Shown here: positions 16,289 through 39,200 of the stretch, one piece after another
Layout: each line of letters opens with the position of its first letter
How positions within the stretch are numbered: position 1 is the stretch's first letter
Assembly: GCA_028277465.1 (NCBI GenBank)
Contig: JANQGF010000166.1
Location: 1 to 51,830 of the forward strand
Length of the DNA stretch: 51,830 nt
Direction of reading: 5' to 3'
Source of the DNA: Chromatiaceae bacterium
GTDB lineage: Bacteria > Pseudomonadota > Gammaproteobacteria > Chromatiales > Chromatiaceae
Made by a program: the position numbers and the translations under genes
Notes under the pieces: model-generated
Database searches by the model: none
The model's input: the letters and a program-made list of their open reading frames with translations, nothing else
What the model was told of the DNA's origin: nothing

Positions 16289-16427
16289 GGGCTCCAAAAA
16301 CAAAAGGGATCGACTTGTTTCTATTGCCCCAACTCCGCTGCAACAGGACCGGGATCTTTCAACGGCCTGGTAGATCACAACTCTTGGCGTCCTCCTGAGT
16401 TGGAATCCAACCCTCCGGGACCTACGC

Positions 16428-17217: not shown

Positions 17218-17240
17218 TTTGGCGTTCTTTCAGTCTGGAA

Positions 17241-21104: not shown

Positions 21105-21264
21105 GAAGTTTGCCCGGGAGGCGACAAGAGCAACGGTCAACGCAAAAGTATTTCGCCTCGCTTTCGACCGCATTACAACGGGCTCACGTCTTGCGGTCGT
21201 CTAACGCTTATCGCAGAATGATGCTCACGCGGTTTGCAATCAAGCCACCGAACGGAGGCTCCAA

Positions 21265-21957: not shown

Positions 21958-22005
21958 AGTTTCTTCCAGTTGTTCATCGAGCCCCCGGATTCATCTCTAA
22001 GGAAC

Positions 22006-22074
22006 GATTCAGAAACAAGTGGTGCAACTTGAGCCGCCCTTGTTGGGCTACGGTGTGTAGGTTGTTTCTGAATC
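22006..22074. mobile_element. MITE-like element, copy 1 (internally deleted)
   Basis: A 69-bp element with perfect 13-bp terminal inverted repeats (gattcagaaacaa / ttgtttctgaatc). It is nearly identical to the element at 51738-51826 but lacks about 20 bp that form one arm of an internal palindrome. Both copies are preceded by taaggaac. It has no coding capacity and lies between two leftward sulfotransferase genes. Confidence 0.8.
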
Positions 22075-22123
22075 CTTGCTAACATCCTGAACCACCTCCC
22101 CCCGGTAAAGAAGGACAACGGGC

Positions 22124-23281
22124 TCACGTCTGGATGGGGCAAGAGTCACCGAGCGAACTCGAACGCTTTTCATCCATTATAACGGGAACATGCCTCTTCT
22201 TCCTGGTGCGAGACTCCTTGCTCATAACCCTCTCAGCCGCTAGCTTCAGCCGAAGCTGGTGCATCCATTTTGCGACCTCCTCGGCCGCCATACCTTCACG
22301 CCATCGCCTTTCATATTTCCCGCCCAATTGCTGTGCCAACCATTGCAGATCCTCCGGGCAGAAGGTCAACAGATCCTGCTCCGAACGGATAGCAACATCA
22401 TCATGTCTATAAATGTCCTCCATCAAAGGTGACCCCAAGCGGTCTTCCATCCAGTCGACATCGCGTCTTATCGCCTCGATGGCTGGCGCAATCAGACTCG
22501 AATGAAGCCGCACCTTGCCACCACGCAGCTCCCGCATCTTCCGAATCAGTGCCCTATTCTCACCAATCACCTGGGGGCCCACCCCATATCCCGGCCCATA
22601 CTTTCGGTAGGCGTAAAGAAATCCTAGCGCCTTCAAGGACAGTCCCTCGTTCGCGCGGATCGAACCGCTCGCATCAAATCTAATCCCCAGCCTGCGACAA
22701 AAATCCTGAACGACATCGCCATTAACGAAGTTCACCGGATCGAACTTCCACAAACGGACGCGGTCTTTCCCAAAGACCCGGTCAAGCTTCCTGAGATGCC
22801 AATACTTCGGACATGTCGTCTCCAATCGGTCAAAGCACTTCATCCCCCCCTTCACGCGTTGCTGAAATGCGCTCTCCATAAAGCCCTTTGGCGACCGTAT
22901 GTAGCCTACCGCCCAGACATCATGCGTCCGCTTCAAAAGGTAACCGTACAGATCCTCCAGCTCCGGACTTGCCATGTTGCTGGCCCTCTCGCCCGAGAGG
23001 ATCGCGGCTCTATCGTTCGCGGATTGCAGCTCCTTCTCCAAACGCAAGAACATCCTCTCTCGAAGACCTGCAACATCCCTTCTCGTCAATCCGCGCTTTC
23101 TGTGAGGATGAAACCTATGCGGGCTTGCGCCAAAAAGCGTTCCCATAGCGCCGCTGAGATTGCCCCGTCGTCCCATCCTGACAAAATAGAACCGATCATC
23201 CGTTAGATTGGCACAGAGCGACTGTTGTATAGATGAGGTACCTGTCTTATGCATCCCTACATGGAGGATACAACTATTCAT
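22124..23281 (-). CDS. Sulfotransferase-like protein
   Basis: A 385-residue protein with the phosphosulfate loop CILHVGMHKTGTSSIQQSL (4-22) and 3'-phosphate segment WAVGYIRSPKGFMESAFQQR (123-142), preceded by ILSGERASN at the position of the family's conserved Ser/Glu. The C-terminal third is basic and helical (KWMHQLRLKLAAERVMSKES) and may hold the long acceptor or bind a membrane. It belongs to the same broad group as the gene at 14375-15697 and the N-terminal domain of the next gene upstream. Confidence 0.8.
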   Translation of the reverse strand: MNSCILHVGMHKTGTSSIQQSLCANLTDDRFYFVRMGRRGNLSGAMGTLFGASPHRFHPHRKRGLTRRDVAGLRERMFLRLEKELQSANDRAAILSGERASNMASPELEDLYGYLLKRTHDVWAVGYIRSPKGFMESAFQQRVKGGMKCFDRLETTCPKYWHLRKLDRVFGKDRVRLWKFDPVNFVNGDVVQDFCRRLGIRFDASGSIRANEGLSLKALGFLYAYRKYGPGYGVGPQVIGENRALIRKMRELRGGKVRLHSSLIAPAIEAIRRDVDWMEDRLGSPLMEDIYRHDDVAIRSEQDLLTFCPEDLQWLAQQLGGKYERRWREGMAAEEVAKWMHQLRLKLAAERVMSKESRTRKKRHVPVIMDEKRSSSLGDSCPIQT

Positions 23282-23334
23282 GGTCTCCTGCGCCTCTATC
23301 TTCCGATTTTGCCTTCACAGACAACACCCGAGAC

Positions 23335-25272
23335 TCATGTCGGCCTTTCCTCAAGTGCACTCTGAATCTCATGAATGAAAGCCATTAGCTTTTCATCTTG
23401 CTTCACCATCGCGACTTGGCCGGAAATCGCCGTCTGAGCCAAATCCCAATCATAAGGCGCTTGATCTAAATCGAGATGCTCCAGGATCATCTTTGTAAGC
23501 CCGTTGGGAGAAGCAACGAGTTCTCCATAATGCACCAGCAAACTGGAATCGGGGTTTTTCGCCAGAAACTGCCGATACACCCTATAGTGGTCACCTATCT
23601 CCCGAAGAATCTTCTTCACCTGGACTTCACGCTCTTCCCGTTCTGAGAAACTCCATTCCTCCATCGCCTCGGATGCGTATAGCCGATTTCGAACAACTTC
23701 CGCGACATCCCGGAGCAGAAAGACGAACTTGCCTCCCGGGAAGAGCACCCGCAACAAGTTTAGTACCGCCATATTATTGTAAAGAACCTCCCTGAAGCCC
23801 CAACGCATATCGCCCCGAAGGCGGCTCCCAAAGTAGTCACAAACAAAGCCACGAAGCCTCTCCTCAAATCCTGTCAACGAAATCGGGTTTGCCCATTCTA
23901 TGGCCGCGTTCGGATCCTGCAATGTCGGAAGAAGTAGAGCCGGTCCAGCATTCTCCGAATCGACTTTCGGGAATCGCTCCTGCCTCCTCATTTGCGCATA
24001 GGCCTTGCCTAAGCCATTAAGAAATCCGCCGTGTTCGCCCCAAAGGACGAGGTGTGGGTGACAATTGAGGAGTCGCTGCACCAAGTCACTACCCGCGTGT
24101 GCAGTCGACATCACGAAAACCGGTTCTTCCAAATCGCCCCGTTTCTGAACGTTCATTATCTCAGCATTGCTGGTTTCCGACCTCGACGCAGGTTGTCGGT
24201 TCGACGGGTCTCCAGCTTCCTCGGGTTGCCCTGCCGAGCCGCTAAGTTCGTCCACCCTCCTTCTCAACTGCGCAACCTCATCAAATTGTCGTTTCAGCAA
24301 CAATAAGAAGGAGGTATTGATCTGACCTTGCGTCACACAAAAGTCCTTGTGTGTTAGCGCACTCGTGTCTATTTCTGATTGGCCGAATCTGGCAAGAACC
24401 TTATTCAGTCGCTCTCGATCCTCTTCGACATCACCCTTAACCGACAACAGGTCCTCTTCCGAGGGCAACATCTCCGCCAGATCGCAACCACCCGGCTGGT
24501 TTACCAAAAGACCTGCTTGTTCAAGCATCCTTTGCAGCTGTATCGGAAGGATCGGCTCATAAAACTGGTTATTAAACAACGCCCATAAGGCCAGAGCGAC
24601 AGGATTCGGAGTCTCATTAACACGCGCAATCGCAAACTGCGGCGTCAATAACCTGTAATACTCCAGAAAATCAACCACAACGTCGCCGCATGCGTCGAAG
24701 TTTCGCACCGCCATATCCGACCATTCCTCACTGAGCCACACTTTCAGCGAGGGATAGAATTTGAGCTGCCAATCCCGGCGCCATTCAGCAAACGGACGAA
24801 TGGGGCCATGGTAGGTTTTATGCTTTAGACCCCATTGCAAGTACGCACTACGGGCCCAAGCATCATGACGCCGAATATAGACAATCACCCTAATCGCGAT
24901 CTGTTGCCGTTTCAAAGCCGTCAGAATTGGCACGATAAGCTTGCCCTGCACAAACATGGATTCATTGGACCAGATCGCCCTGGATAACCCCTCGCTCCTC
25001 CATGCTCCGATGGCTTCGGACAACATCTCCTCGAGTTGTACCGCGGCCCGCCGTCGTCCAGCGCGCAATAGCTCAGGCCACCCGCTCGCTTTTTGCCATG
25101 GGAAACGCTTGACGGGTGATCCCTCGCCCATGAGACCAAGATACGCCGTCTGCTGCTCGCGCAATCTTTCCTGATTATCCCGCAGTGTTCCTTGAATCGA
25201 CGAAGATCCCGTCTTGCCTGTGCCAATATGCACAATCAGCTCGAATTCAGCTGGCGCGCGCTCTCTTATCAT
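23335..25272 (-). CDS. Protein with two sulfotransferase-like domains
   Basis: A 645-residue protein. Domain 1 (about 10-330) has VHIGTGKTGSSSIQGTL (14-30) and a 3'-phosphate segment VYIRRHDAWARSAYLQWGL (131-149). A helix and Pro/Ser linker (about 325-380) follow. Domain 2 (about 383-645) is a second sulfotransferase-type fold with FVMSTAHAGSDLVQRLLNCH (386-405) and KFVFLLRDVAEVVRNRL. In domain 2 the loop Gly-x-Gly-Thr is replaced by AHAGSD, so cofactor binding may be altered. The stop of the upstream GT4 gene overlaps this start by 4 bp, so synthesis of the two is coupled. It could sulfate two positions on the same chain (inference). Confidence 0.75.
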   Translation of the reverse strand: MIRERAPAEFELIVHIGTGKTGSSSIQGTLRDNQERLREQQTAYLGLMGEGSPVKRFPWQKASGWPELLRAGRRRAAVQLEEMLSEAIGAWRSEGLSRAIWSNESMFVQGKLIVPILTALKRQQIAIRVIVYIRRHDAWARSAYLQWGLKHKTYHGPIRPFAEWRRDWQLKFYPSLKVWLSEEWSDMAVRNFDACGDVVVDFLEYYRLLTPQFAIARVNETPNPVALALWALFNNQFYEPILPIQLQRMLEQAGLLVNQPGGCDLAEMLPSEEDLLSVKGDVEEDRERLNKVLARFGQSEIDTSALTHKDFCVTQGQINTSFLLLLKRQFDEVAQLRRRVDELSGSAGQPEEAGDPSNRQPASRSETSNAEIMNVQKRGDLEEPVFVMSTAHAGSDLVQRLLNCHPHLVLWGEHGGFLNGLGKAYAQMRRQERFPKVDSENAGPALLLPTLQDPNAAIEWANPISLTGFEERLRGFVCDYFGSRLRGDMRWGFREVLYNNMAVLNLLRVLFPGGKFVFLLRDVAEVVRNRLYASEAMEEWSFSEREEREVQVKKILREIGDHYRVYRQFLAKNPDSSLLVHYGELVASPNGLTKMILEHLDLDQAPYDWDLAQTAISGQVAMVKQDEKLMAFIHEIQSALEERPT

Positions 25273-26516
25273 AGACTCTTGCTTGAACTGTTCAAACGCT
25301 GGTAGAGATCAATATGCGTGTTGGTACTGTCTTCTACCGAAGTATAGCTGGGCAACGACTCGCAGATGCTACTGTGGATCCCAGCGTCATCAATGATACG
25401 ACTAACGACTGTAGATAGCGAAATACTGTCGCGAGCGCGATAATTCAGTCCGCCTACTCCAGGTTGTACCTTTTCAGCCATTCCACCGATGTCGGGACAA
25501 ATCACCGGTCGGCCAAACTTGAAGGCCTCCTGTATGACAAGAGGCGAGTTCTCCCACCAGACCGATCCCATTATCACCCAGTCCACCTCGCCCATGAGAC
25601 GACCCATTTCCTCGGGCTCATACGGGCCATGCATCCGAGCCACACCTTTCAACCGATCGAGCAAAGAACTAATTTTGGCTTGAAACTCCGCTGATTGATA
25701 GTTCAGCGCTGAGCCGAATAAATCCAGCGTCACCTGCTTACGCTCTTTCAGGCTCAAATTAACAAAAGCCTCGAGAATGACATCCACCCCTTTGAAGGGA
25801 TTGATCTGGCCAAAGTAGGCAAAACGCGTCCTTTTTTCGTTCGCAACAAGTGGTTGGAGCGGTACGCGATGGCCCGCTGGCAATCCGTTCTCAATAATCG
25901 AAATCTTGTCCTCCGATATCCCCCAAGCCACATAGCGGTCCTTCAGGAAGCAGCTTGGAGACACAAAGGCATCCACTATTCGGAAGAAGCTCTTGATATA
26001 TTGCTCCCGCAGGAAAAAATCTTCCGGTGTCAGTTCCGGATAGCACAGGTGACATTCGCGTGGGCTGTACCGGTAACACAGCCGACCATCAGTCTTGGTC
26101 ATTTGACCGTTATTCAAGCAGATCGCGATATACTCATGCAGAGTCAAGACAATGCTAGCCGTGGGACAAGTTCTCTTCGCGGCATAGATCATCTCCAGGC
26201 CGAGATGAAAGTAGTGATGAAAATGGATGACATCCGGGCGAATACTCCGCAGCAGGACGGCAAAATCACTGTCTTTCCCGAGCGGAATTGTCGCAGTGAG
26301 GTTGTGGATGTCGGCGTTTCCCGAGATCAGAAACTCGCGCGGGTTCACACCAGAGATCGGCGTCCCAAGGTGCAGCAGCTCTTGCGGGGCGCGGCCAACG
26401 AACCAGGCTTCATTCGCTGCCGTGTCGTTTATCCCGTTAAAGAGATGATAGGCTGCTAGCTCGCCGCCGCCCTTACTGAAGTTCGGGTGACCGTGGCTCA
26501 AGATAAGCACCCGCAT
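25269..26516 (-). CDS. Family 4 glycosyltransferase
   Basis: A 415-residue GT-B fold enzyme. The N-terminal Rossmann domain starts VLILSHGHPNFSKGGGELAA (3-22), with DVIHFHHYFHLGLEMI. A Cys cluster (ICLNN, RLCYRYSPRECHLCYPE) follows HEYIA, as in some GT4 enzymes. The C-terminal donor domain has FAYFGQINPFKGVDVILEAF and the EX7E-type ENSPLVIQEAFKFGRPVI. It is expected to add a sugar from a nucleotide donor to the growing capsule repeat in the cytoplasm (inference). It is separated by 2 bp from the gene upstream and overlaps the gene downstream by 4 bp. Confidence 0.88.
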   Translation of the reverse strand: MRVLILSHGHPNFSKGGGELAAYHLFNGINDTAANEAWFVGRAPQELLHLGTPISGVNPREFLISGNADIHNLTATIPLGKDSDFAVLLRSIRPDVIHFHHYFHLGLEMIYAAKRTCPTASIVLTLHEYIAICLNNGQMTKTDGRLCYRYSPRECHLCYPELTPEDFFLREQYIKSFFRIVDAFVSPSCFLKDRYVAWGISEDKISIIENGLPAGHRVPLQPLVANEKRTRFAYFGQINPFKGVDVILEAFVNLSLKERKQVTLDLFGSALNYQSAEFQAKISSLLDRLKGVARMHGPYEPEEMGRLMGEVDWVIMGSVWWENSPLVIQEAFKFGRPVICPDIGGMAEKVQPGVGGLNYRARDSISLSTVVSRIIDDAGIHSSICESLPSYTSVEDSTNTHIDLYQRLNSSSKSL

Positions 26517-26518
26517 GA

Positions 26519-28936
26519 TCAGCCCCCTGCCTCGTCGGGGCTCGCAATCTCACCTGACCGAATCTTCTTGACATACCGCCAACCATTGTAAAAGGTCAAT
26601 AGCTGTCTCGATCCGACGATCTCCGAGGCGTTTTGCGATTGACGCTCAAGATGCCAGAGCGCAGCTGCAGGCACTAGCCAAAGCCGCTTGCCCTCTTTAC
26701 GCAGTGCGAGACAGAGGTCACTATCCTCGAAATCACCGATGAGATATCCCTCATCCAGGCCACCTGCCTCTAAGTAATCTCGTGTGCGGAGCATGATACA
26801 AGCGCCTGTAAGCAATGGCTGCTCGACGGGTTCCTGGTCGCCGTTCCACGCCTGTCCCTTGCCGGGATGAATGTTCAACAGAAAACCTGGCAGGACGGGG
26901 TCCTCTCGAGGACGCATGCCTGCATGTTGAATCGAGTCATCGCTGAATAGTAGAAGTGGGCCCACGGCCCCCGCCTCCGGCAGACCCAAGAGCGAACGGT
27001 GAAGCTCGCCGAGCCAACCGGGATGCTTGGGAATGACGTCGGAATTCAACAGCAGGAGAGTCTCGGCCCGTGCCAACTTAGCGCCAACGTTATTCGCACC
27101 GGCAAACCCCAAATTCACGCCATACCAGACCACCCTGAACGGGAGCTCGAACAGCTGATAATAGGATATTGCCATATCCTGCACCATATAGGTGATCGAA
27201 GGATCATCCACGACATAGATGAGATCGACATCGCAGAAATCCGGATCCCCTACAAAGTGTGCAAGTTGGTGACGAATGAAGTCAAAACGCCCAAACAGAG
27301 GAACGATCACTGAAACACTGGGTTGGCTTGGTGCCTCTCCAAACTGACGCTCGACCACATTGGGGGAAGAGCGCGTCCCGCTCGTACTTAGCGCTGCGAT
27401 GGCCCGGCCGAGGCCATTGTCAAAGACGTCGAACAGAGATGCGCGCGGCGCCGGTACCAAACCTAGTACTTCTTTCACCAAATCCAACGAGCTCTTGTTG
27501 GTCGTATCCGTCGGCACTTTCAGCCAGACCTCACCCAACTCGCCATAGTCGAAACATAAGACACGCGCCTCGCCACGACGCGTCGGCATAGGAGCAAGAC
27601 AAACGAAACCACATAGTTCCTGAACTTCAGAGAAGCGGGGCCGGTGTATCTGAGCGACGTCGTTTCGGATCAGCGGCGAAAACCGCCCGTCAAGCCCGAC
27701 TGCTTCCCCTTCCTCGCCCCTAATAGAAATAGATTGTGGCTCACGCATCGGAAAGAGCTTCCAGCCAAATATCAGCACCCCTTCTTCGTCCAGCGGGAAG
27801 GCCCGATCGATAGCTCCGATTAGTCTGACCGGATCCTCAATGTTGAAAGGCGTGTTTGGGTAACGCGAGTAAAACTCCTCTCGTTGCAATCGTCCGATAT
27901 TCTCTCGCGAAACCTCAGGATCCTGTGAACTCTGCAGTTCTGACAGAAGCTTGATGACATGCCCGGCCAGGCCATGGTAACCCCCAATAGCCGCCGATAA
28001 TTCCGGCCAGGCCAACTCCCGAGCGGATGTGAATATCGTCTCCACCTGCCCATTGCGATCTCTAATCTTCAGCCTGAGCTCCTGCGGCCACTTCTTGTCC
28101 TTTCTCAAAACACAGACAAAGCCCAAAGGTTCCTCGGTCGACCAAGGAAACCGCGGCAATAGATCGGGGCGAGCATACCTGCGTATTCGCGAGGAAATCT
28201 CCTGGGTTTCACCCCCGCCGATCAGTTCCAGCACCTCCATCTGATCCGGCCGTATCGCGATCCATCCATTCAGGATCAAGGTCCGATCATCCACGATAAA
28301 GCCATGGTCGCACGCCGCAAACTGACGAGTTGGCAATGCACTCGAAGTGACACTTCCAGACAAAGTAGCGGCAACCTGGGTGAGCGGATGATCAGAACCG
28401 AGAGAGTGCCGCAAGGCAGCAAGGAACTGCGGGCCCGAATGTAGCCAATACTGCTGCAGAACAGGTTCAATATCTGCACGATGTCTCAAAGGTACGAATG
28501 GAAGAATCACATACTTGCCACTTGGCATTGCCATGGCGAGACTGGCATTCTCCTCACAACGAGGCACAACCAGGACGAATCCATGCTTGCCTGCTCGATC
28601 CTCGACCTGACCCGACATCGCTTGGGCAACATCCAGACGCGAAACACGGTCGATCGTAACCCGATTGATACCACTTACGAGCGGCGTAACCCGATAGGAC
28701 CTCTTCTCCAAGACCCCGCGACGGCGTTCGGTCAGAATCGCAAACCCTTGCACCTGATCCTCTGGATCGAAAACCCAGCCGATGATCGCCAGATCACCCT
28801 CTTTCGACATGGCCGCGAAGTCCACATAGGCCTTGACATTCACGGCGGATCTGAGAGTCTCGACCTTGCTAGCACCAACCTCCTTGACCGAGGTGACCTG
28901 GCTCGTTTCAGCTTGCTGCATAGCGTTCTCTAACAT
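26519..28936 (-). CDS. Glycosyltransferase (GT2) with three N-terminal beta-repeat modules
   Basis: An 805-residue protein. Three related modules (about 45-150, 212-305 and 383-478) each start with an acidic strand and GW (IIGWVFDPED, ILNGWIAIRP, IFGWKLFPMREP) and end with GFV (GFVLVVP, GFVCVLR, GFVCLAP). They look like beta-sandwich modules and may bind glycan or partners. The C-terminal GT2 domain (about 540-790) has SVSVIVPLFGR, YVVDDPS (D577-D578), NLGFAGANNVGAKLA and LLLLNSDVIP (D633), then a late ED motif DFEDSDLCLALR. The modules are not recognised as a named family. The start overlaps the stop of the upstream gene by 29 bp. Confidence 0.82.
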   Translation of the reverse strand: MLENAMQQAETSQVTSVKEVGASKVETLRSAVNVKAYVDFAAMSKEGDLAIIGWVFDPEDQVQGFAILTERRRGVLEKRSYRVTPLVSGINRVTIDRVSRLDVAQAMSGQVEDRAGKHGFVLVVPRCEENASLAMAMPSGKYVILPFVPLRHRADIEPVLQQYWLHSGPQFLAALRHSLGSDHPLTQVAATLSGSVTSSALPTRQFAACDHGFIVDDRTLILNGWIAIRPDQMEVLELIGGGETQEISSRIRRYARPDLLPRFPWSTEEPLGFVCVLRKDKKWPQELRLKIRDRNGQVETIFTSARELAWPELSAAIGGYHGLAGHVIKLLSELQSSQDPEVSRENIGRLQREEFYSRYPNTPFNIEDPVRLIGAIDRAFPLDEEGVLIFGWKLFPMREPQSISIRGEEGEAVGLDGRFSPLIRNDVAQIHRPRFSEVQELCGFVCLAPMPTRRGEARVLCFDYGELGEVWLKVPTDTTNKSSLDLVKEVLGLVPAPRASLFDVFDNGLGRAIAALSTSGTRSSPNVVERQFGEAPSQPSVSVIVPLFGRFDFIRHQLAHFVGDPDFCDVDLIYVVDDPSITYMVQDMAISYYQLFELPFRVVWYGVNLGFAGANNVGAKLARAETLLLLNSDVIPKHPGWLGELHRSLLGLPEAGAVGPLLLFSDDSIQHAGMRPREDPVLPGFLLNIHPGKGQAWNGDQEPVEQPLLTGACIMLRTRDYLEAGGLDEGYLIGDFEDSDLCLALRKEGKRLWLVPAAALWHLERQSQNASEIVGSRQLLTFYNGWRYVKKIRSGEIASPDEAGG

Positions 28937-31556
28937 CAGTAGTCTCGGCGTGAGTCAAAAAGAGGTCATTCAAGTCCCTTGGGCGACGAGCAAGTTCGAT
29001 CGCCATCAAATGATCCGCTCGCCCCAACCTCCGAAGTCGCGCGGCTATCGCTCCCAGATCAAAGGCGAAAATCGGGTAACCTGCCTTGAGCGCAATCGAT
29101 AAGGTGTAGCTGTACGTCTCCGGCCAAAGGGAAGGCAGCCAAACCACATGTGGCCGCAGCGCGCGAAGCTTATCTAGCGCCTCCTGCTCCTGGTATCTGC
29201 CAGTCAGACGGACGCCGGCCTCCTCGAGTAGCGAATCGTTCATGCTGTAGCCCATCAAGATGAACTCCAGGGGCAATCGCCTGTTCCTCGCATCGCGGGC
29301 ACACGCCTGTAAGACATCATAGCCCTTCAGTCGATCGATCGCACCAAGCACGACAACCCGCTGCCATTCGCCTGGATCCCGCGGGATCGGTTCCAGACTC
29401 AGTTCGTCAAGACCAATTTCTTCATGTGGCGACACCTGAAATCGAATCTCCGGATAATAACGGCCTAGCCGCAGAGAAACGTCTTCATCCGGCACCAGCA
29501 CTCTATCGCAAGCCAACAATGAATCGCGATGCAACGATCGCCATGCCCCGATATCGGTTACCTCGCGGGCACTACCACGACTCCTCAGGCAACGATTACA
29601 TCCGGCATCCGATGGCTCGCCGCAATAGTGCCCATTCTCATCGACGAGATTCAGCCTCGGACAAATAACCTCATAATCATGGATCCTGACCTCCCAGACC
29701 ACGCCCATCGTCCGAACCAACCGAGCCAGATCGGTCATGGCTTGTGGCTCGAAATCGACAAGACTATGAGTGTAAATCTCGTTAATGCCAATTTCCGCCA
29801 ATGTACTCCGCAACCTACTCGTGTCAGAAAGTCGCAGCAAGGATAGATTCGGTATGGAATGAATGAGTGGAGACTCAAGCGATGCAAATGCTGGGTTTCC
29901 CGAAGCTGGACGTAAGAGAAACACGCCGAGCCCGGCCTGCAAGAATCGCTCGAACTCTTCTCGAACATGCCGTTCCGTGCCGCCGCCTCGGCGATGACAA
30001 ATGATGAGCACGTTCCTGTCTCGACAGGTCCGCTTCATCCTTGCCCAATCCAGGCGACGGCGTGCAACCTCCAATGGGTCTCGCTGGATGAACTCCGCGA
30101 CCTGCTCGCGATATCGAGGGTATCGCTTGTCCAGGACTTTGAGAGCGGCTTGGGTCCTCTTGGCCTTTTCACCCTGAAATGAAGCACCGCCACAATGATG
30201 TACGAAAACCTCCACAGCAATCAGGTTGAGCCAACCTCTTGTGATGGCACGCTGGCAAAGGTCATTCTCCTCGCCATAGCCTCGCCCGAAAACACTCTCG
30301 TCGAAAAAACCCGTCGCATCGAGACAGGCTCGTTTAAGGTAAAGACAAAAGCCGACACCGGTCGGTGACTCTACCTCCATTCCGTAATTGACACGACTAG
30401 CCAAGTCGTCCAGTTCAGCAAAGGATACTTCGAGCAGACTAGCATTATCATGCAGAAACTCCGGATAACTGCAGATGGTCGCGTTGTTGGAAAGCGGTGT
30501 CACTGTTCCACATCGATCGTGGCGGTACGCGACGCAACGAAGTCGGTCGAGCCAATTACCATAGACCTCGGTATCAGCATTGAGCAAGACCACATCCCGC
30601 GTGGGATGAAGCCGCATCCCAAGATTCGCTGTTCCTACAAAGCCTCGATTCTTAGTATTCTCGATCAGGGTAAAGAGGCCCTGTTCTGCGAGGTCGCGCA
30701 GTTCAGCCGACAGATCTCTATCGGGGCTGACATCGTTGATCACGACCAACTCGAACGGTGTTACAGAAGACGCCGAGAGCACACTGTACAAGCAGCGCAG
30801 TGTCTCGAGCCGACCATTGTAAACCGGCACTACGACATCAATTCCAGCGTTATCGACACCAGCCCGAGGTCCCAACTCCGACCAGCACTCAGGGTCCGGT
30901 GGCTCGATCGGCGCGAGATCCACCGAAACTCCGTGCGGCGATTCGGAGCCCCAGCCGGGCACTGCCGGTCTCCCTTCCAAGCGTCCCCGCCGGAGGTAAT
31001 GCAGCAGTGGGTTGATGCGTGCATTTGCCACCTCGGGGTTGCTGCGCAGATAATAGGCACCATCAAACTCGGTATTCGGAGAGCGCCCTTCGATCCCCCC
31101 CCACGTCAAATAGTGGAGCAACGGGTCACAGCCGGAGCTTACAACATCCGGATTATTATCGAGGTAATATCCAAGATCAAAAAAAGGGCTTGGCGCCAAA
31201 CGCAGAAATCGACCTACATACGCATAATGCAGCAGGGTATTAAACTGTCTCGCTACACCCTTGATCTCGCGCCTATAGTAGCTGGGGTCGAATAAGGGCA
31301 TTGGCCAGCGTCCCTCGCGATCCCCGTAGCTCACATAGTGACGCAAAGGGGGCATTTTCGACTGCAGGACGTCTGGATTGGAACTCAGATAAAAGCTTCG
31401 GTCGAAGAGTTGCTGACGCTTCAGCAGACCAATTAATAGCGATCTGTATCTTCTACATAAGCGCAACGGCTTGCAGGCATACCCGAGAAGCCAGAGTAGA
31501 CCGATTAACACCCCACCCCACCAAGCCTTGATCTGATCGCGTATAGGGATTCTCAC
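28908..31556 (-). CDS. Bifunctional glycosyltransferase (repeats + GT2 + GT4-like), copy A
   Basis: An 882-residue protein from a GTG start. A hydrophobic N-terminal segment (about 12-30) precedes four 37-residue repeats (about 50-199) of the form FDxxYYLxxNPDV...PLxHYLxxGxxEGRxP. Next is a GT2 domain (about 238-480: DVVVPVYNG, VINDVSPD, NRGFVGTANLGM, VVLLNADTEVY). A C-terminal GT-B/GT4-like part (about 520-870) carries a four-Cys cluster (CPRLNL, HYCGEP, CNRCL) and VVVLGAIDRLKGYDVL. Such proteins can add two sugars in turn. It is a tandem paralog of the gene at 31626-34262, with the same domain order and many identical blocks. Confidence 0.87.
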   Translation of the reverse strand: MRIPIRDQIKAWWGGVLIGLLWLLGYACKPLRLCRRYRSLLIGLLKRQQLFDRSFYLSSNPDVLQSKMPPLRHYVSYGDREGRWPMPLFDPSYYRREIKGVARQFNTLLHYAYVGRFLRLAPSPFFDLGYYLDNNPDVVSSGCDPLLHYLTWGGIEGRSPNTEFDGAYYLRSNPEVANARINPLLHYLRRGRLEGRPAVPGWGSESPHGVSVDLAPIEPPDPECWSELGPRAGVDNAGIDVVVPVYNGRLETLRCLYSVLSASSVTPFELVVINDVSPDRDLSAELRDLAEQGLFTLIENTKNRGFVGTANLGMRLHPTRDVVLLNADTEVYGNWLDRLRCVAYRHDRCGTVTPLSNNATICSYPEFLHDNASLLEVSFAELDDLASRVNYGMEVESPTGVGFCLYLKRACLDATGFFDESVFGRGYGEENDLCQRAITRGWLNLIAVEVFVHHCGGASFQGEKAKRTQAALKVLDKRYPRYREQVAEFIQRDPLEVARRRLDWARMKRTCRDRNVLIICHRRGGGTERHVREEFERFLQAGLGVFLLRPASGNPAFASLESPLIHSIPNLSLLRLSDTSRLRSTLAEIGINEIYTHSLVDFEPQAMTDLARLVRTMGVVWEVRIHDYEVICPRLNLVDENGHYCGEPSDAGCNRCLRSRGSAREVTDIGAWRSLHRDSLLACDRVLVPDEDVSLRLGRYYPEIRFQVSPHEEIGLDELSLEPIPRDPGEWQRVVVLGAIDRLKGYDVLQACARDARNRRLPLEFILMGYSMNDSLLEEAGVRLTGRYQEQEALDKLRALRPHVVWLPSLWPETYSYTLSIALKAGYPIFAFDLGAIAARLRRLGRADHLMAIELARRPRDLNDLFLTHAETTDVRERYAAS

Positions 31557-31625
31557 CGAAAAAGCAACACTTGAAGGGAGTTCTGAAAATAAGCCTGATG
31601 ATCAGGCGCCGACATGAACCACACG

Positions 31626-34262
31626 TTAAGGAAGATCGCTTCTATGCCAATGACTTATGCGATACTGAATAAACAGCGAATTAATCTCGGAGGGGTCGCA
31701 TGCGAGCGAGACGGGGCAAACGATACACGACCTACCAATCTTTCGTAAACGCTCTGATATCGCCCCGAGATCGAACGAAAACACAGGATAGCCGCCTTTC
31801 AGGGCTAGAGAGAGTGTATAACTGTAGGTCTCGGGCCAAGTATAGGGAAGCCAAATGACATGCGGAGAAAGCCCGTGCAGCTTGCCTTCAGCCTCCTGGT
31901 CGATATAGCGGCCGGTCACTTGGACCCCCGCCCGCCTGAGTGAGCTGTCATTGTAACTGTAACCCATGAGAATGTAATCAATGGGCAGATGGCGCTTTTG
32001 GGCGTCACGGGCGCATGCGTGAAGAACCTCGTAGCCCTTGATCTTGCTGATCGCACCGATCACGACGACGCGCAGAGATTCCGCCGATGCCAGGCGCGGC
32101 TCCCGGATCACCACTTGTGATGGGTCCAGGTCCTCATGGGGCAGGATCTCGAAATGCAGCTCGGGATAATACCGTGAGAGGCGTGCGGCAACGTCCGAGC
32201 TCGGCACCCAGATCTTCTCCGCTGCCTGCAGCACCCTGCGATGCCGTTCCCGCCATGCCCGGATGTCCCGCACATCAAACTCATTCCCTTCCGAAACGAG
32301 GCATTGGTCGCACAGCCGCGGCTCGGGCTCCCCGCAATAACGGCCATTGCGATCGACAAGGTTGAGGCGCGGACAGATCACCTTGTAGTCATGGATGTCG
32401 ACCTGTAACGAGGCGCCAATGGCCTTGGCAATCGCCAGTAGGTGCTCGGGCGCCTTGGCGGTGAAGTCGACCAGCCCATGGCTGTGTATACAGTTGATGC
32501 GGAGCTCCCTCAGTTTCTCCGCAATCAAGCCGAAATTCGCGAGCTCGTACGTCGGTAGGTTCAACAGCTGGCGACAGTCGGGGTGACCGAAGCGGGCGTG
32601 CGTACGCCGCCCACGCTCTGGTCGAAGATAGAAAACGCCCTTGCCTTCCGCCTGTAAACGCCGCGTATCCTCCTGCACATGTCGCTCCGCGCCACCCCCA
32701 CGATTGTGGCAGGTAATGAGCACGTTCTCATCCCGAACCGTCGCCTTGAAGCGCTCCCAATCCAAACGGCGACGCACACTCGCCAGTGGATCCTGACGAA
32801 TGAATGCGTCTAGATTCTGATGATATCCAGGATGCCGTCGATGCAATAGCTTTGCTGCATTGGCAAGTCGACCCGCCCTCTCGCCCAGGAAAGAGACACC
32901 GCCGATGTGACGCACGAACACGTCCGCAGCGATCACATTCCGCCAACCGTTTTTGATCGCAAGTTGACAATAGTCGTGATCCTCGCCATATCCTTTGCCG
33001 AATGCCAACTGGTCAAACAAACCCAATTCCTTCAGCGCATCGCGACGAAGATACATGCAGAAGCCGATACCCGTCGGCGTCTCGATCTCGACGCCTGCAT
33101 TGACCCTTGCAGTCATCGCGTCGAGCTTGTCATAACTGGTCTCCAGCGGATAGGGGTTGTCTTGCAGAAAGCGCGGATAACTGCAAATACCCGCATTATT
33201 CGAGAGTGGAGTAACCGTCGCGGTGCGAACGTGACGATAAGCGGCGCTGCGAAGACGATCCAGCCAGTTGTGATACACCTCTGTATCGGCATTGAGTAAT
33301 ACGACGTCGCGCCGTTCATGCATCATCATGCCACGATTGACTGTCCACACATATCCCCGGTTGACTTCATTATGGTGTAGTTTCAGGATACGCTGTGCGG
33401 AAAGCCTGTGCAGCACATCGGCCAGATCTGAATCTGGACTGCAATCGTTGATCACGATCAGTTCGAACGGCGTATCATTCTTTGCGGAGAGAAGGCTCTT
33501 GATGCAGCGCAGAGAGATATCCCGATCCCTGTAGATCGGAAGGATGACATCGACACGCGCGTTTGGCTCGTCGATCCGAGTAGGATTCGTGGCACTCAGT
33601 TGCCGACCGTCCAAGAAGTCGACCTGTCTAGCCTGGATTTCCGGCTGATCGACATGATTGAGCTCGCGTGTTGCGCGATCGGAAAAACGCCCGACCTGCA
33701 AATAATGGATCAATGGATTGAGATCAGCCTCGCGCACCTCCGGATTCGTGCGCAAGTAGAAGGAGCCGTCGAACTGGGGGTTGGGTGAACGCCCTTCCAA
33801 CCCACCCCAAAGGAGGTAATGCCTAATTGGTTCATGGCGCGATCGCGCGACGTCCTTGTTATGAGATAGATAATAGCGCAAGTCGAACCAGGGACTTGGC
33901 GAGATACACAGATAGCGCCCGACGTAGGCATAGTGAAGCAGCGCATTGACCAGCACCCGACGGGCTTTTGCGCGACTGCGATAATAAGAAGGGTCGAACA
34001 AGGGCATCGGACATCGCCCTTCCCGATCGCCATAAGCAACATAGTGTCGCAGAGGTGGCATACCTGTCTGCGCCACATCAGCATTGCTGTCAAGATAGTA
34101 ATCTCGATCGAAAAGATCGGTCTTCTTTAATAGGCGAATGAGCAGCCCCCAGTGGAGCCGCCGCAGCCCACAGGGCACGCATAGGAGTCCGAACAAGGCA
34201 ACGGTACTGAGAAAGAACTCTCCCCGCCACGCCTTAATTCGATCCCGCAGGAGAATTTTCAC
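31626..34262 (-). CDS. Bifunctional glycosyltransferase (repeats + GT2 + GT4-like), copy B
   Basis: An 878-residue paralog of copy A, also from GTG. It has the same layout: hydrophobic start, four FDxxYYL...HY...EGR repeats (about 50-199), and a GT2 domain with DVILPIYRDRDISLRCI, VINDCSPDSDL, VVLLNADTEVY and NWLDRLR. The GT4-like half has RGGGAERHVQED, the Cys cluster CPRLNL...YCGEP...CDQC and VVVIGAISKIKGYEVLHACA. Differences between copies are spread along the length, suggesting an old duplication with possible donor or acceptor change. It lies 69 bp upstream of copy A in the same direction. Confidence 0.87.
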   Translation of the reverse strand: MKILLRDRIKAWRGEFFLSTVALFGLLCVPCGLRRLHWGLLIRLLKKTDLFDRDYYLDSNADVAQTGMPPLRHYVAYGDREGRCPMPLFDPSYYRSRAKARRVLVNALLHYAYVGRYLCISPSPWFDLRYYLSHNKDVARSRHEPIRHYLLWGGLEGRSPNPQFDGSFYLRTNPEVREADLNPLIHYLQVGRFSDRATRELNHVDQPEIQARQVDFLDGRQLSATNPTRIDEPNARVDVILPIYRDRDISLRCIKSLLSAKNDTPFELIVINDCSPDSDLADVLHRLSAQRILKLHHNEVNRGYVWTVNRGMMMHERRDVVLLNADTEVYHNWLDRLRSAAYRHVRTATVTPLSNNAGICSYPRFLQDNPYPLETSYDKLDAMTARVNAGVEIETPTGIGFCMYLRRDALKELGLFDQLAFGKGYGEDHDYCQLAIKNGWRNVIAADVFVRHIGGVSFLGERAGRLANAAKLLHRRHPGYHQNLDAFIRQDPLASVRRRLDWERFKATVRDENVLITCHNRGGGAERHVQEDTRRLQAEGKGVFYLRPERGRRTHARFGHPDCRQLLNLPTYELANFGLIAEKLRELRINCIHSHGLVDFTAKAPEHLLAIAKAIGASLQVDIHDYKVICPRLNLVDRNGRYCGEPEPRLCDQCLVSEGNEFDVRDIRAWRERHRRVLQAAEKIWVPSSDVAARLSRYYPELHFEILPHEDLDPSQVVIREPRLASAESLRVVVIGAISKIKGYEVLHACARDAQKRHLPIDYILMGYSYNDSSLRRAGVQVTGRYIDQEAEGKLHGLSPHVIWLPYTWPETYSYTLSLALKGGYPVFSFDLGAISERLRKIGRSCIVCPVSLACDPSEINSLFIQYRISHWHRSDLP

Positions 34263-34335: not shown

Positions 34336-35415
34336 TCACGTTCGTCGGCGCGCTTCTTCCGCCCGACGAGTCTCGCCGATTGGCTCAACCGGCGGTCGCA
34401 CGGAAGCTGCGGGAGACCCCCCCCAGTGTGAATCCCTTTCTCTTCGATGTCGGGCCTTGAGTGCGAGTCGCTCGAACGTTCGACGTGCGCCCACGAGCAA
34501 CGACTCGCGGAGTGAATCGTCCTTGGCGAGACGCAAGATCGCCTCGGTCCAGGCATTGTGATTGAGCTCGACAACCAGCCCGTCGACATTATGGCTTACG
34601 ACCTCAGCGCTGGCTGATCCCGGCGAATAGATGCCGACACCACCACAGCGGGTAATATCGAAGAACTTGGTATAAGATCGAGCCCGATTGAAGGGCGAAT
34701 CGAGCAGCGGAGCTAGACCGATATGCCGCCCCGGCATTGCGCTGAACATTCGGTAGGCCGACCAACTCATTGGATGCACGACCGTCACGCGCGGTAACCG
34801 ACGATAGAGACGATAGACGTTTCGACCGCCAATGATCTCGAAGGAGAGCCTCTCATCGGACCCCAGGACCTCTTCGACGGCAGGACGCAGCCACCGAATC
34901 TCCCGACCGTGAGAAGCGGTCCCGTGATAGAAGAAGCGACGAAGATCGATGGAATCAGCAGCAGGAACAGGCAATAGCAATCTGGGATTCCAGTCGGCGT
35001 ATTTGCGCTGCAAATAGGCCGTTGAAACCCAAAGCGCCGCATCTTGGCGCCGCAGCCAATCCTTGCGGCGGCCAGCCAACCGCGCCAACTTCAGCCGGTA
35101 GGTCAACGACAAACCTTCCGATGCACTCGGATCGAGCAGGTCATCGTCCATGAAGAAGACCAGAAGCCGAATCTTCGCCCGCGCGACTTCAATGAGCTTC
35201 AACCAGGAACGCGGCACATAACGGACGAAGACCACGGCTGCGCCTGCCAGATCGCCAGGATCTGGAATATCATGGAAGCCGCATCTGATCACCCGGCAAT
35301 CGAGCGTCTCGAGCGCCGGTTCCACGAAACAATCGGTCGAAGGATTGATCCGCTCCTCAACCACATACACGAGGCGCCTAGCCTTACCGGCATCGATGTC
35401 CGTCGCGGTTCCCAT
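34336..35415 (-). CDS. Glycosyltransferase-like protein (GT-B fold)
   Basis: About 359 residues from ATG 35415; the frame is open to ATG 35478, and ATG 35424 or 35437 are also possible. The shorter form leaves about 85 bp for promoters facing the divergent kpsC. RLVYVVEERINPSTDCFVEP opens a Rossmann-like domain. VVFVRYVPRSWLKLI, the acidic strand LLVFFMDDDLLD and the C-terminal IGLAPLLDSPFNRARSYTKF then GGVGIYSPGSASAEVVSHNV look like the donor side of GT-B enzymes. It is the first gene of the leftward island transcript. The basic, Arg/Glu-rich tail (about 320 on) is not typical of the fold. Confidence 0.68.
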   Translation of the reverse strand: MGTATDIDAGKARRLVYVVEERINPSTDCFVEPALETLDCRVIRCGFHDIPDPGDLAGAAVVFVRYVPRSWLKLIEVARAKIRLLVFFMDDDLLDPSASEGLSLTYRLKLARLAGRRKDWLRRQDAALWVSTAYLQRKYADWNPRLLLPVPAADSIDLRRFFYHGTASHGREIRWLRPAVEEVLGSDERLSFEIIGGRNVYRLYRRLPRVTVVHPMSWSAYRMFSAMPGRHIGLAPLLDSPFNRARSYTKFFDITRCGGVGIYSPGSASAEVVSHNVDGLVVELNHNAWTEAILRLAKDDSLRESLLVGARRTFERLALKARHRRERDSHWGGSPAASVRPPVEPIGETRRAEEARRRT

Positions 35416-35499
35416 GACTGGCATTCTACAGAACCCCATACCCGCGCGCATCGCGCACTCGGCCAATCTCCCCACCATTGCCCATCCAGAATGAATGCC

Positions 35500-37455
35500 A
35501 TGATCAGGATCATGTCACCCGGCATTGCACGAATTCCTCATCTCGACGCCTTGCTCGGGGAGGAGGTCTCGAAGGAATCCCTTCTTGGCGGACAAGAGAC
35601 TCCGCGGGCCGTCGCTGGCTGGGGCCGAAAACCCACCACGGCCAAGGCGCGGCGTTATGCCAGATCCCACGGCCTGCCCTATCTTTGCTTGGAAGACGGA
35701 TTTCTCCGCTCCGTCGGTCTCGGTCACGAGGACGCGCCACTCTCACTCGTGATCGATGACCTTGGCATCTATTACGATGCGACGACCCATTCGAGGCTGG
35801 AGGATCTGGTTCGGCGCCCAAGATCGGCAACGGAGGTGGCTCGGGCACGCATGCTGAAACAGGCCTGGCGCGAGACCCGGGTCTCAAAATACAATCACTT
35901 ACGCGAGTTCGAGGGCACCTTGCCGACGCCTTACGTGCTCGTTGTCGACCAGACCTTCGGGGATGCCTCGATCACCTATGGACTGGCTGAGCCAGCGAGC
36001 TTCCACTCCATGTTGTCAACCGCATTGGAGGAGAATCCAGGGCTGACGGTACTGGTGAAGGTACACCCGGATGTGATTGCGGGGCGCAAGAAGGGGCACT
36101 TCGATCCTACCGCCCTGGCCCATATGCAGCGTGTTGCGCTCATCGCTGATGAGGTACACCCGACCAGGCTCATCGAGTCGGCCCGGTCTCTCTACGTCGT
36201 CACCTCTCAGCTGGGATTCGAGGGCTTACTCTGGGACAAGCCCGTGCGAACCTTCGGTATGCCCTTCTATGCAGGTTGGGGCCTGACAGACGATGCGCTG
36301 CCTCCGCCAGTGCGACGTCGGCCGGTTCCTTTGGAGAGCCTCGTCCATGCCGCACTGGTGGACTACGCACGCTATCTGGATCCCGAGACCGGCTCGCCCT
36401 GTGAGGCCGAGCGACTGTTGGACTGGATGGGATTGCAGCGAAGGATGCGGCAGCGTTTTCCCCGCCTGCTTCATGGGGTGGGCTTCTCGCCCTGGAAAAG
36501 GCCGATCGTTCGGGACTTCCTACAGGGTAGTGCCGTGCATTTCGTGAAACGGCCTGAAGCAGTTGCACCGAACCAGACGCTCGCGGTCTGGGGCCTGAAA
36601 GAGACGGGATCCATGAGCGCCATTCGGCTCGAAGACGGCTTCCTACGGTCCGTCGGGCTCGGCACAGACTTGATCAGACCCCTATCCTGGGTCACGGATC
36701 GCACCGGGATCTATTACGATTCCAGCCGACCGTCGGACCTGGAGCAAACCCTTGAGACCGCACCATTCGAACCCGCCCTACTCGCTCGCGCCAGGGCCTT
36801 GCGCGAGCGAATCGTGTCCTCTCGGTTGACCAAGTATAATGTCGGCGGTCAGGCCTGGCAGCGCCCGAAAGGCGCGAAGAGAATCATTCTAGTTCCGGGA
36901 CAGGTCGAGACGGATGCCTCCATCGCCTCTGGGGCACCTGGGATTCGGCGGAACATGGATCTTCTGCGTACCGTTCGTGAGGCCAATCCAGAGGCCTATC
37001 TCCTCTACAAGCCACATCCGGATGTCGTGGCTGGCTTACGTGCGCGGGGACAGGGAGAGGAAGGCGCCTCCCAATGCTGCGACGAGGTGGTGGATGGCGA
37101 TTTGATCCAGATCCTTGGCCAGGTCGACGCCCTTCACGTCATGACATCCCTGGCGGGCTTCGAGGCCCTACTGCGTGGCAAGGCGGTCACCTGCCACGGC
37201 CAACCCTTCTATGCGGGATGGGGCTTGACCACAGATCTGGCCCCGGTTGCACGCCGTACCCGACGCCTCTGCCTGGACAGCCTGGTTGCGGGAACGCTCA
37301 TTCTATACCCGACCTATATCAGTCGCGTCACAGGACGCTTCACGACCCCCGAGCGAGCGCTGGACGAACTGCTCGAATGGCGATCGAGAAGATCGAGGAC
37401 ACTGCCGCTATGGCGTTACCTATTCCGGATCCTGCTCCGACTGAACAAACGCTAA
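35500..37455 (+). CDS. kpsC: Capsule polysaccharide Kdo transferase KpsC
   Basis: This 651-residue protein has two homologous halves, as in KpsC, which builds the poly-Kdo linker on phosphatidylglycerol that primes group 2/3 capsules. Half one has LCLEDGFLRSVGLG, VVDQTFGDASITYG, VLVKVHPDV and FYAGWGLTDD. Half two repeats IRLEDGFLRSVGLG, LVPGQVETDASIASG, LLYKPHPDV, MTSLAGFEALL and FYAGWGLTTD. The start MIRIMSPGIARIPHLDALL aligns with E. coli KpsC MIGIYSPGIWRIPHL, so ATG 35500 is chosen over upstream starts in the same open frame. It points away from the leftward island and ends directly against the stop of kpsE. Confidence 0.93.
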   Translation: MIRIMSPGIARIPHLDALLGEEVSKESLLGGQETPRAVAGWGRKPTTAKARRYARSHGLPYLCLEDGFLRSVGLGHEDAPLSLVIDDLGIYYDATTHSRLEDLVRRPRSATEVARARMLKQAWRETRVSKYNHLREFEGTLPTPYVLVVDQTFGDASITYGLAEPASFHSMLSTALEENPGLTVLVKVHPDVIAGRKKGHFDPTALAHMQRVALIADEVHPTRLIESARSLYVVTSQLGFEGLLWDKPVRTFGMPFYAGWGLTDDALPPPVRRRPVPLESLVHAALVDYARYLDPETGSPCEAERLLDWMGLQRRMRQRFPRLLHGVGFSPWKRPIVRDFLQGSAVHFVKRPEAVAPNQTLAVWGLKETGSMSAIRLEDGFLRSVGLGTDLIRPLSWVTDRTGIYYDSSRPSDLEQTLETAPFEPALLARARALRERIVSSRLTKYNVGGQAWQRPKGAKRIILVPGQVETDASIASGAPGIRRNMDLLRTVREANPEAYLLYKPHPDVVAGLRARGQGEEGASQCCDEVVDGDLIQILGQVDALHVMTSLAGFEALLRGKAVTCHGQPFYAGWGLTTDLAPVARRTRRLCLDSLVAGTLILYPTYISRVTGRFTTPERALDELLEWRSRRSRTLPLWRYLFRILLRLNKR

Positions 37456-38538
37456 TCAATCACGATGATCACGGATGATGGCAACCAACAGCTGGGTAAT
37501 GAGGGCAGCCAGTAAGGCGACGATGGCGAAAACCGTCGCATTGTACAGCCGCCTGGGACGTGTCGAGTATTCCGGGTAAGTCGGGTTCTGCAGAACCGAG
37601 ACCTGTTTTAGCGAGCGCGCCGCCTCGACACGTGTGTTCTCGAGCGCCGTGATGGCACTGGAGTAGAGTTGGCGAGTATGCTCGACCTGAAGGTTTAGCA
37701 TCTCGTACTCCGACGCGAGCTGGTTGAGCGCACGACCCGACTGCTGCGCCAACCGCGCGCGCTCGAAAGCAATCTGCTTCTCCAACGCCTCGATCTCGCT
37801 CTTTGAACGCAGCATGTCCGGCGAGCGCTCGCTCTGGGAAACGCTCAAGGCGAGCCGCTTAGCATTGGCCTTCGCCAGCGACTGCTCGAGCGTGGACACA
37901 ACCGAACTCAGGCTCTGGACGGTCTCCGGCGGTGAGACTAGACCATGTTCGTTCTGGTAGGCCAATAGAACGTCGGTCGCCTCCAGCAAACGATCTCTGA
38001 GGTCTTCCACTTGGACCTCGATGAAGCGCACCTGCCCCTCGGCCAGACGATGGCCCATCTCGTTCATGTGAACCTCACCCTTGCTCAGCATGAGCGTGAC
38101 GATCGCGCGAGCCGTCTCCGGATCACAGGCCTGCGCAGAGACCCTGAGCACCTGCGCATACTCGTCCAGTTCCACCAAGACCCGCTTCAGATAATAGCGA
38201 TGAAAATCCTCGATGGGCACATCCTGGGATGACAACCGCGAGAACCGGTCAAGATTCGGAGCAGCATAATGCGCACGCAGATTCAGCTCCTCATCCAGCA
38301 TCTCGAGCATGTCGACCGACAAGAGATAGTCACGCAGAATCAAAAGGTCATTGGAGCTGCTTCCGCTGAGAATGGCGTCCAAGCCGGCGCCACTTTGAGT
38401 GACCTGTGCACTCATGATTACCACATTGGCTCGCGAAACATAGCGATCCGAGGCCAGCAACAACCAGTAGAAACCGACCACACAGATGGAGACCAGGCAA
38501 ATGAGCCAGACCGGATTCATCGAGGCCAGTCTTTTCAT
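37456..38538 (-). CDS. kpsE: Capsule export inner-membrane protein KpsE
   Basis: A 360-residue polysaccharide co-polymerase-type protein that spans the periplasm and links the KpsMT transporter to KpsD. It has membrane segments near both ends (about 10-28 WLICLVSICVVGFYWLLLA and about 335-355 ATVFAIVALLAALITQLLV) and a long periplasmic coiled coil between (about 170-310). The motif LQNPTYPEYSTRPRRLYN just before the second membrane segment is the family's conserved Pro-rich stretch. Its start overlaps the kpsT stop by 4 bp. Its own stop abuts the kpsC stop (convergent, no spacer). Confidence 0.9.
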   Translation of the reverse strand: MKRLASMNPVWLICLVSICVVGFYWLLLASDRYVSRANVVIMSAQVTQSGAGLDAILSGSSSNDLLILRDYLLSVDMLEMLDEELNLRAHYAAPNLDRFSRLSSQDVPIEDFHRYYLKRVLVELDEYAQVLRVSAQACDPETARAIVTLMLSKGEVHMNEMGHRLAEGQVRFIEVQVEDLRDRLLEATDVLLAYQNEHGLVSPPETVQSLSSVVSTLEQSLAKANAKRLALSVSQSERSPDMLRSKSEIEALEKQIAFERARLAQQSGRALNQLASEYEMLNLQVEHTRQLYSSAITALENTRVEAARSLKQVSVLQNPTYPEYSTRPRRLYNATVFAIVALLAALITQLLVAIIRDHRD

Positions 38539-39200
38539 GCGGCTTTGGTGCCCTTCCGGTAGGCATTCAGCGCATCCTGAATGCTGTCGAACCAGATCGC
38601 CTTACCCTCACGCAACCAGAGACCGGCCTGGCAGAGGTCTTTCAGGATCCCCTCGCTGTGCGAAACCATGATCAGATTCGCCTTGTCGATACGCTCCCTG
38701 AACGCCTTCTTGGCCTTTTCCTTGAACGCGAGGTCTCCAACGGAAGTGGCTTCATCGGAGAGATAAAGATCGAAATCAAAGGCCAATGAAAGCCCGAAGA
38801 GCAGTCGGCTGCGCATACCGCTGGAATAGGTCTTCACAGGCTCATCGAAGGCCTTGCCGATCTCGGCGAAGTCCTGCACGAACGCGATGATCTCGGCAAT
38901 CCGGGCACCGTCACCATGCACGCGGGCAACGAACTTGACGTTTTGCCGACCCGTCATCGCGCTCTGGAATCCGCCCCCCAGACCGATCGGCCAGGACACC
39001 CGACAGTGACGGATAATCCGGCCCCGATCGGGGTGATCCATGCCTCCGATTAAGCGCAGAAGCGTGGACTTCCCGGCGCCGTTACGGCCAACCAAACCAA
39101 CGCTGACGCCTTTCGGCAAACGAAAGTCCACGCCACGCAATACCCAGTTGCTCCCCGCATGGTTGTGGTAGCGTTTATAGACGTCTCGAACTTCAATCAT
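38535..39200 (-). CDS. kpsT: Capsule export ABC transporter ATPase KpsT
   Basis: A 221-residue cytoplasmic ATPase. MIEVRDVYKRYHNHAG is the family start, and its ATG overlaps the kpsM stop by 4 bp, so the longer open frame to 39287 is rejected. Walker A is GRNGAGKST (38-46), the signature SSGMRSRLLFGLSLAF, and Walker B LYLSDEATSVGD, as in KpsT/CtrD. It powers export of the lipid-linked polysaccharide with KpsM. Confidence 0.93.
   Translation of the reverse strand: MIEVRDVYKRYHNHAGSNWVLRGVDFRLPKGVSVGLVGRNGAGKSTLLRLIGGMDHPDRGRIIRHCRVSWPIGLGGGFQSAMTGRQNVKFVARVHGDGARIAEIIAFVQDFAEIGKAFDEPVKTYSSGMRSRLLFGLSLAFDFDLYLSDEATSVGDLAFKEKAKKAFRERIDKANLIMVSHSEGILKDLCQAGLWLREGKAIWFDSIQDALNAYRKGTKAA

Follow-up and report, generated by a model that had tools for sequence, protein, structure and literature searches.

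The capsule polymerase of Neisseria meningitidis serogroup W resembles by description the proteins reported here, being bifunctional and using two nucleotide sugars; its heads are hexosyl- and sialyltransferases, domain families differing from those considered below. CpsD of Actinobacillus pleuropneumoniae, a TagF-like protein of an ABC-transporter-dependent capsule locus, combines two catalytic domains with an alpha-helical repeat domain, and truncation of its TPRs results in the loss of linker elongation and in reduced processivity (PMC11666461). In ORF6 of Klebsiella pneumoniae O7, two GT2 modules, of which one carries an NxD motif, build three sugars of the repeat of an ABC-transporter-dependent glycan; a single polypeptide with two glycosyltransferase modules can thus assemble most of a repeat unit (PMC11231755).

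Two adjacent genes of comparable design, referred to as copies A and B, are present in a Chromatiaceae bacterium (assembly GCA_028277465.1, contig JANQGF010000166.1). The whole stretch of DNA that was analysed, hereafter the window, is 51,830 nt long. The genes are separated by 69 bases and both lie on the minus strand:

31626-34262, minus strand: copy A (878 aa), four repeats followed by a GT2 and a GT-B/GT4-like domain; the conserved, syntenic member of the pair
34116-34262, minus strand: hydrophobic pair of helices at the N-terminus of copy A (residues 5-28 and 34-48)
33666-34115, minus strand: residues 50-199 of copy A, four FD repeats of 38 residues, the second of them degenerate
32853-33563, minus strand: GT2 (GT-A fold) domain of copy A, with the NxD motif N324-A-D326 and a GYGEDHD motif
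31653-32738, minus strand: GT-B/GT4-like domain of copy A, with a Cys cluster and half of an EX7E motif
28908-31556, minus strand: copy B (882 aa), architecture as in copy A; second copy found only in this genome
30960-31409, minus strand: four 38-residue FD repeats of copy B

The two proteins are 53% identical end to end (869 aligned columns, 4 gaps). The initial annotation of this region had described adjacent genes of nearly equal size encoding two similar two-domain transferases, and both points hold, as does the Cys cluster, the four residues of which (C630, C643, C651 and C654 of copy A) are kept in both copies. The proteins are long, but with ~880 aa each, 'large' describes them better than 'giant', as they had been called. 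The N-terminal helical pair of copy A reaches a mean hydropathy of 2.1 over 17 residues, and contact with the membrane is possible. Like CpsD, A and B join two catalytic domains to an alpha-helical repeat domain and are encoded in an ABC-transporter-dependent capsule locus; unlike them, CpsD is built from hexosyl- and polyol-phosphate transferase families and its repeat is a TPR. With ORF6 of O7 the pair shares two glycosyltransferase modules per polypeptide, an NxD-type GT2 motif and an ABC-transporter-dependent glycan, whereas ORF6 carries two GT2 modules instead of GT2 and GT-B and makes an O antigen, not a capsule.

The GT2 domain, already assigned in the initial annotation, is clearly recognised in each copy (Pfam PF00535, 50.7 and 45.2 bits against a cut-off of 23.3), and the GT-A fold of copy A gave Foldseek matches to GalNAc-T and WrtF. 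For the domain annotated as GT4-like the outcome was mixed: the AlphaFold model of copy A (pLDDT 91.1) has a C-terminal GT-B fold matching the GT4 enzymes BshA (E 1.2e-10) and MshA, but GT4-type Pfam profiles scored below cut-off in copy A (22.8 against 29.7 and 22.4 against 28.5) and none matched copy B. The NxD motif (DxD-type metal motif), GYGE, GGG(A/T)ERH and WPETYSYTLS are kept in both copies. The EX7E motif is incomplete: its first Glu (E811) is present, and the second is replaced by Leu, Ile or Phe in the clade of copy A and in copy B. The position concerned, residue 819 of copy A (approximately 31806-31808), is hydrophobic throughout that clade, being Leu in copy A itself; several repeat-less relatives retain the second Glu. 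Since this Glu is missing from the copy-A clade and the Pfam scores are sub-threshold, the GT4-like domain could be inactive or work differently.

The alignment of the two proteins, put forward earlier as a way to find changed residues, was extended to 233 positions that are invariant in the other relatives. Fourteen of these are changed in copy A and 12 in copy B. Eight of the 14 fall in the GT2 domain, including E428D and N429H within the GYGEEND motif; copy A further departs at F304Y, and W306 differs between the copies. As read from the alignment, the changes in copy A are compatible with an altered specificity, of which they are no proof. The active sites are thus conserved, not identical, and we saw no sign that copy B is silent: its ORF is intact and overlaps the next gene. 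Of the two observations that the initial annotation had named as speaking against its proposal, near-identical active sites and an unexpressed copy, at most the first is therefore present. That one copy is redundant or decaying is highly improbable. The departures of copy A at otherwise invariant GT2 positions (E428D, N429H, F304Y) and a weak terminator-like hairpin between the genes (31593-31607) would fit such decay, but both ORFs are intact with their main motifs kept, just 12-14 of the 233 positions are changed per copy, and the hairpin scan returned 12 hairpins against a chance expectation of 9.1. A search of the sequence for RNA families gave no match.

The pair is surrounded by genes for capsule synthesis, export and sulfation:

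20526-21104, plus strand: sulfotransferase (Sulfotransfer_4)
21265-21957, minus strand: sulfotransferase (Sulfotransfer_2)
23335-25272, minus strand: sulfotransferase (Sulfotransfer_3)
25269-26516, minus strand: GT4 glycosyltransferase
26519-28936, minus strand: GT2 protein, the first 29 bases of which overlap the end of copy B
34336-35478, minus strand: GT4-like glycosyltransferase directly upstream of copy A, a neighbour conserved in related genomes
35044-37455, plus strand: KpsC-like Kdo transferase (Pfam Capsule_synth)
37456-38538, minus strand: KpsE-like polysaccharide co-polymerase; the assignment comes from synteny and homology, with no meaningful Pfam match
38535-39287, minus strand: KpsT-like ABC transporter ATPase (ABC_tran)
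39197-39979, minus strand: KpsM-like ABC-2 permease (ABC2_membrane)
39983-41710, minus strand: KpsD-like polysaccharide export protein (Poly_export, SLBB)
42972-44288, minus strand: KpsS-like capsule synthesis protein (Capsule_synth)

The KpsC-like ORF as delimited probably starts too far upstream, its true start lying near 35.5-35.6 kb. A KpsM/KpsT pair, an export protein and KpsC/KpsS, all recognised by Pfam, place the locus among ABC-transporter-dependent (group 2/3 type) capsule loci. The overlap of copy B with the following GT2 gene points to one operon. The G+C content is 48-57% at 14-34 kb against about 60-68% at 1-12 kb, as expected for a variable capsule region. Sulfotransferases of three Pfam families lie nearby, so the product is probably sulfated. 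The low-G+C stretch at 14375-25272 contains sulfotransferase-like genes of several families, two of them (16428-17033 and 15813-16343) apparently truncated, and suggests a sulfated capsule with gene turnover. Next to the capsule genes, at 44618-45772, lies a gene for a DUF4214 protein with weak similarity to phycobilisome linkers (Pfam 3.2e-10).

We moderately favour the reading that A and B are bidomain capsule polymerases or extenders with a non-catalytic docking repeat, TPR-like in its job without being a TPR. From the architecture, motifs, locus context and evolutionary order of the pair, and from the predicted fold and spread of the repeat, we infer activity, sugars, their order and the repeat ligand as follows. 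Both copies would be cytoplasmic capsule glycosyltransferases, each adding two sugars in turn by its inverting GT2 (GT-A) head and its GT4-like (GT-B) head to an acceptor chain begun on the KpsC/KpsS Kdo glycolipid. The product would be sulfated by the neighbouring sulfotransferases and then exported by KpsMTED. Copy A would be the ancestral extender of this locus type, and copy B, an older paralogue or import, might add further residues or a variant unit. The four FD repeats would form an alpha-helical docking module by which the enzyme is kept on the growing chain, on partner enzymes or on both, and the repeat may also bind itself; CpsD is the closest experimental parallel to such docking. 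We found no biochemistry of a close relative of A or B. The E. coli plasmid pEM20-18-50_5 (L159:1256-11355) carries a compact cluster of rfbBADC, an ABC transporter, one GT2 gene and a homologue of the GT2-GT4 core; with a single further glycosyltransferase in the cluster, it suggests that this core can be the main polymerising enzyme. Against the favoured reading, the other glycosyltransferases of the Chromatiaceae locus could do the polymerising.

To ascertain how the pair arose, related genomes were compared. Thiocystis, Allochromatium, Methylotetracoccus and Methylolobus encode repeat-GT2-GT4 proteins adjacent to capsule export genes, with a single copy at each locus. The position of copy A beside KpsMTED/KpsC and the upstream glycosyltransferase is kept in Thiocystis and Allochromatium, and the copy A homologues of the two methanotrophs have a similar export neighbourhood. 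In a survey of 210 genomes of the family, seven others matched at E<=1e-150, each once and some in the GT2-GT4 core only; two copies were found in this genome alone. Among 369 genomes drawn evenly from the class, only this genome matched at the same threshold. The comparison of genomes with one and two copies that had been suggested thus gave single-copy relatives and a pair only here, in a finite sample. More distant proteins that share the core, in Rhodospirillum rubrum and on the E. coli plasmid, are 36-41% identical over its whole length and lack FD repeats, having other N-terminal modules or none.

Copy A is 60-62% identical to purple-sulfur orthologues in other genera, whereas copy B does not exceed 50-55% with any full-length relative. 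In the tree, copy A groups with the single-copy orthologues and copy B branches outside them, and a topology with A and B as sisters was rejected (AU p=0.00028). By its position, copy B did not arise by recent duplication but is an older paralogue or was imported; judged from the sequences, it would have split off at some point before the orthologues of copy A diverged. The label 'tandem duplicate' given to the pair must consequently be corrected. The view that went with it, a recent duplication into two near-equivalent enzymes acting alternately on a four-sugar repeat, fits the adjacency, identical architecture and near-equal lengths of the genes, but is very unlikely given the rejected sisterhood and the higher identity of copy A to orthologues of other genera than to B (53%).

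The same comparisons bear on a different division of labour, in which copy A is a transition transferase placing the first sugars on the Kdo anchor in all these capsules, and B with the other glycosyltransferases of the locus forms the serotype-specific polymerase. Such enzymes are known in group 2 capsules (PMC11666461), copy A and the upstream glycosyltransferase are conserved and syntenic while the downstream genes vary among genomes, and copy B was encountered in this genome only in both surveys. We nevertheless consider this division unlikely: the transition transferases that are known come from different families (CpsA, Pfam PF04464; CpsC, LicD), and the architecture shared by A and B favours similar jobs.

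The favoured reading also assigns a role to the N-terminal repeat, which has the consensus FDxxYYLxxNPDVxxxGxNPLxHYLxxGxxEGRxPxP. The 359 distinct units collected conform to F-D-x-x-[YWF]-Y-L-x-x-[NY]-P-D-V-A-x-x-G-x-[ND]-P-L-x-H-Y-L-x-x-G-x-x-E-G-R-x-P-x-P, typically spaced by 38 residues and present in 2 to 34 copies. A profile HMM built from outside genomes only found four units in each copy, with whole-protein E-values of 1.1e-44 (A) and 1.2e-50 (B); those of copy A start at residues 51, 89, 126 and 164. The individual repeats score 11-54 bits, against a maximum of 7.9 bits per repeat in 1000 shuffled N-termini, and none of the other ORFs of the window rises above noise. All four annotated repeats are therefore present, albeit with an incomplete motif in some: repeat 2 lacks NPDV and EGR in both copies and repeat 4 of copy A lacks EGR.

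Prediction of the repeat fold, another check proposed at the outset, gave a confident helical model (pLDDT 94.7 for four repeats). In each unit a short helix is formed at FDxxYYL; the PDV segment and PLxHYL form the second and third helices, and an EGR-P-P loop follows. Foldseek found no match for this model among 350,542 PDB chains at E<=10, in which the repeat differs from the TPR of CpsD, and a sequence-profile search of the PDB gave nothing below E 0.43. Pfam, NCBIfam and PHROG contain no model of the repeat; the few PHROG matches, at 5e-5 to 5e-3, cover just 15-29 residues. Literature searches by motif and by wording found no description. A TPR or another known solenoid was rejected, as there was neither a Pfam repeat match nor a PDB fold match at E<=10. 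In BFVD the model weakly matches proteins of giant viruses (Fadolivirus, Hyperionvirus), namely glycosyltransferases and FkbM proteins (best E 6e-3), hinting that the repeat may occur there as well; from such weak structural matches we make no claim to that effect.

The repeat is found at E<=1e-6 in 50 of 399 sampled genomes of Pseudomonadota (12.5%), the one phylum to which this frequency applies, and the genome scan also revealed loci in Chloroflexi, Acidobacteria, Desulfobacterales, SAR324, Cyanobacteria, Myxococcales and Sulfurovum. Among 80 collected proteins it is N-terminal in 51 and C-terminal in 15. Pfam assignments for 78 of them, in which one protein may count under several families, comprise Glycos_transf_2 (32), Glyco_trans_1_4 (24), RgpF (10), WsaF_C (8) and WbsX (7), along with methyltransferases, GT61 and other rarer partners; separate scans added sulfotransferase, HAD and NTP_transf_5 domains. 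This preponderance of glycan enzymes, seen in domain assignments, may be counted for a docking module. A smaller group appears to be secreted and comprises RTX nonapeptide proteins and a subtilase, as well as two serralysin-like metallopeptidases and two cadherin/Ig proteins. The domains thus bear out the suggestion that the motif is found again in further glycan enzymes as well as in proteins of secreted type.

Several individual proteins extend this picture. The serralysin-like metallopeptidases and cadherin/Ig proteins carry six FD repeats at the extreme C-terminus (L084:5399-9480, L085:7636-9546, L070:1203-11462), a position in which one would look for a type I secretion signal. On a plasmid of Azospirillum sp. 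B510 (L086:6952-12048) a 1698-aa annotated glycosyltransferase, in which no Pfam domain was found, consists for most of its length of 34 FD repeats. The genome that harbours A and B also encodes a coiled-coil protein ending in two FD repeats, adjoining another coiled-coil gene (L001:46-1119), and a 96-aa protein with little beyond two FD repeats (L002:267-557).

The occurrence of the repeat in RTX, metallopeptidase and cadherin-like proteins means that its ligand need not be a cytoplasmic partner, and keeps alive a carbohydrate-binding role. The repeat would then be a module that binds nascent polysaccharide inside the cell and tethers secreted proteins to the exported coat, a proposal that concerns the repeat only and is compatible with the catalytic part of the favoured reading. 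SLH domains, short helical repeats of S-layer and cell-wall proteins that bind a cell-wall polymer, could by analogy serve as a model for such a tether, although no sequence or fold relation to FD repeats was detected and the latter occur in cytoplasmic-type enzymes as well. The distribution over glycan enzymes and the extreme C-termini of metallopeptidase, cadherin/Ig and RTX proteins is consistent with binding, as are at least two genomes (G288 and G417) that encode both kinds of repeat protein, and the near-invariance of Y6 (100%), H23 (97%) and G28 (99%) over the 359 units. Conserved residues may, however, be purely structural (D2, N10 and N19 lie at predicted helix starts), and the PDB fold search revealed no structural relative among solved lectins or CBMs. 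Repeats within a genome are only slightly more similar than those of different genomes (p=0.027), the closest pairs being mostly from secreted-type proteins, and secretion of the proteins is itself inferred from their domains. On balance, we regard a carbohydrate-binding module as possible but somewhat unlikely.

More broadly, and tentatively, FD repeats could constitute an undescribed helical family with a fold absent from the PDB, common to cytoplasmic glycan enzymes and secreted RTX, protease and adhesin-type proteins, and recognising either surface polysaccharide or a shared scaffold on each side of the membrane. The glycosyltransferase pair is a variant of a known design, the multi-domain capsule transferase, and of the two the repeat is of greater interest. 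Its presence in secreted-type proteins makes the question of binding directly testable with an isolated four-repeat protein. Having no entry in the Pfam, NCBIfam, PHROG and PDB searched, the FD repeat may be a component of bacterial coat assembly that has gone unnoticed, and it offers a handle on the organisation of glycan polymerases in the cytoplasm, on their processivity and on their match to the acceptor.
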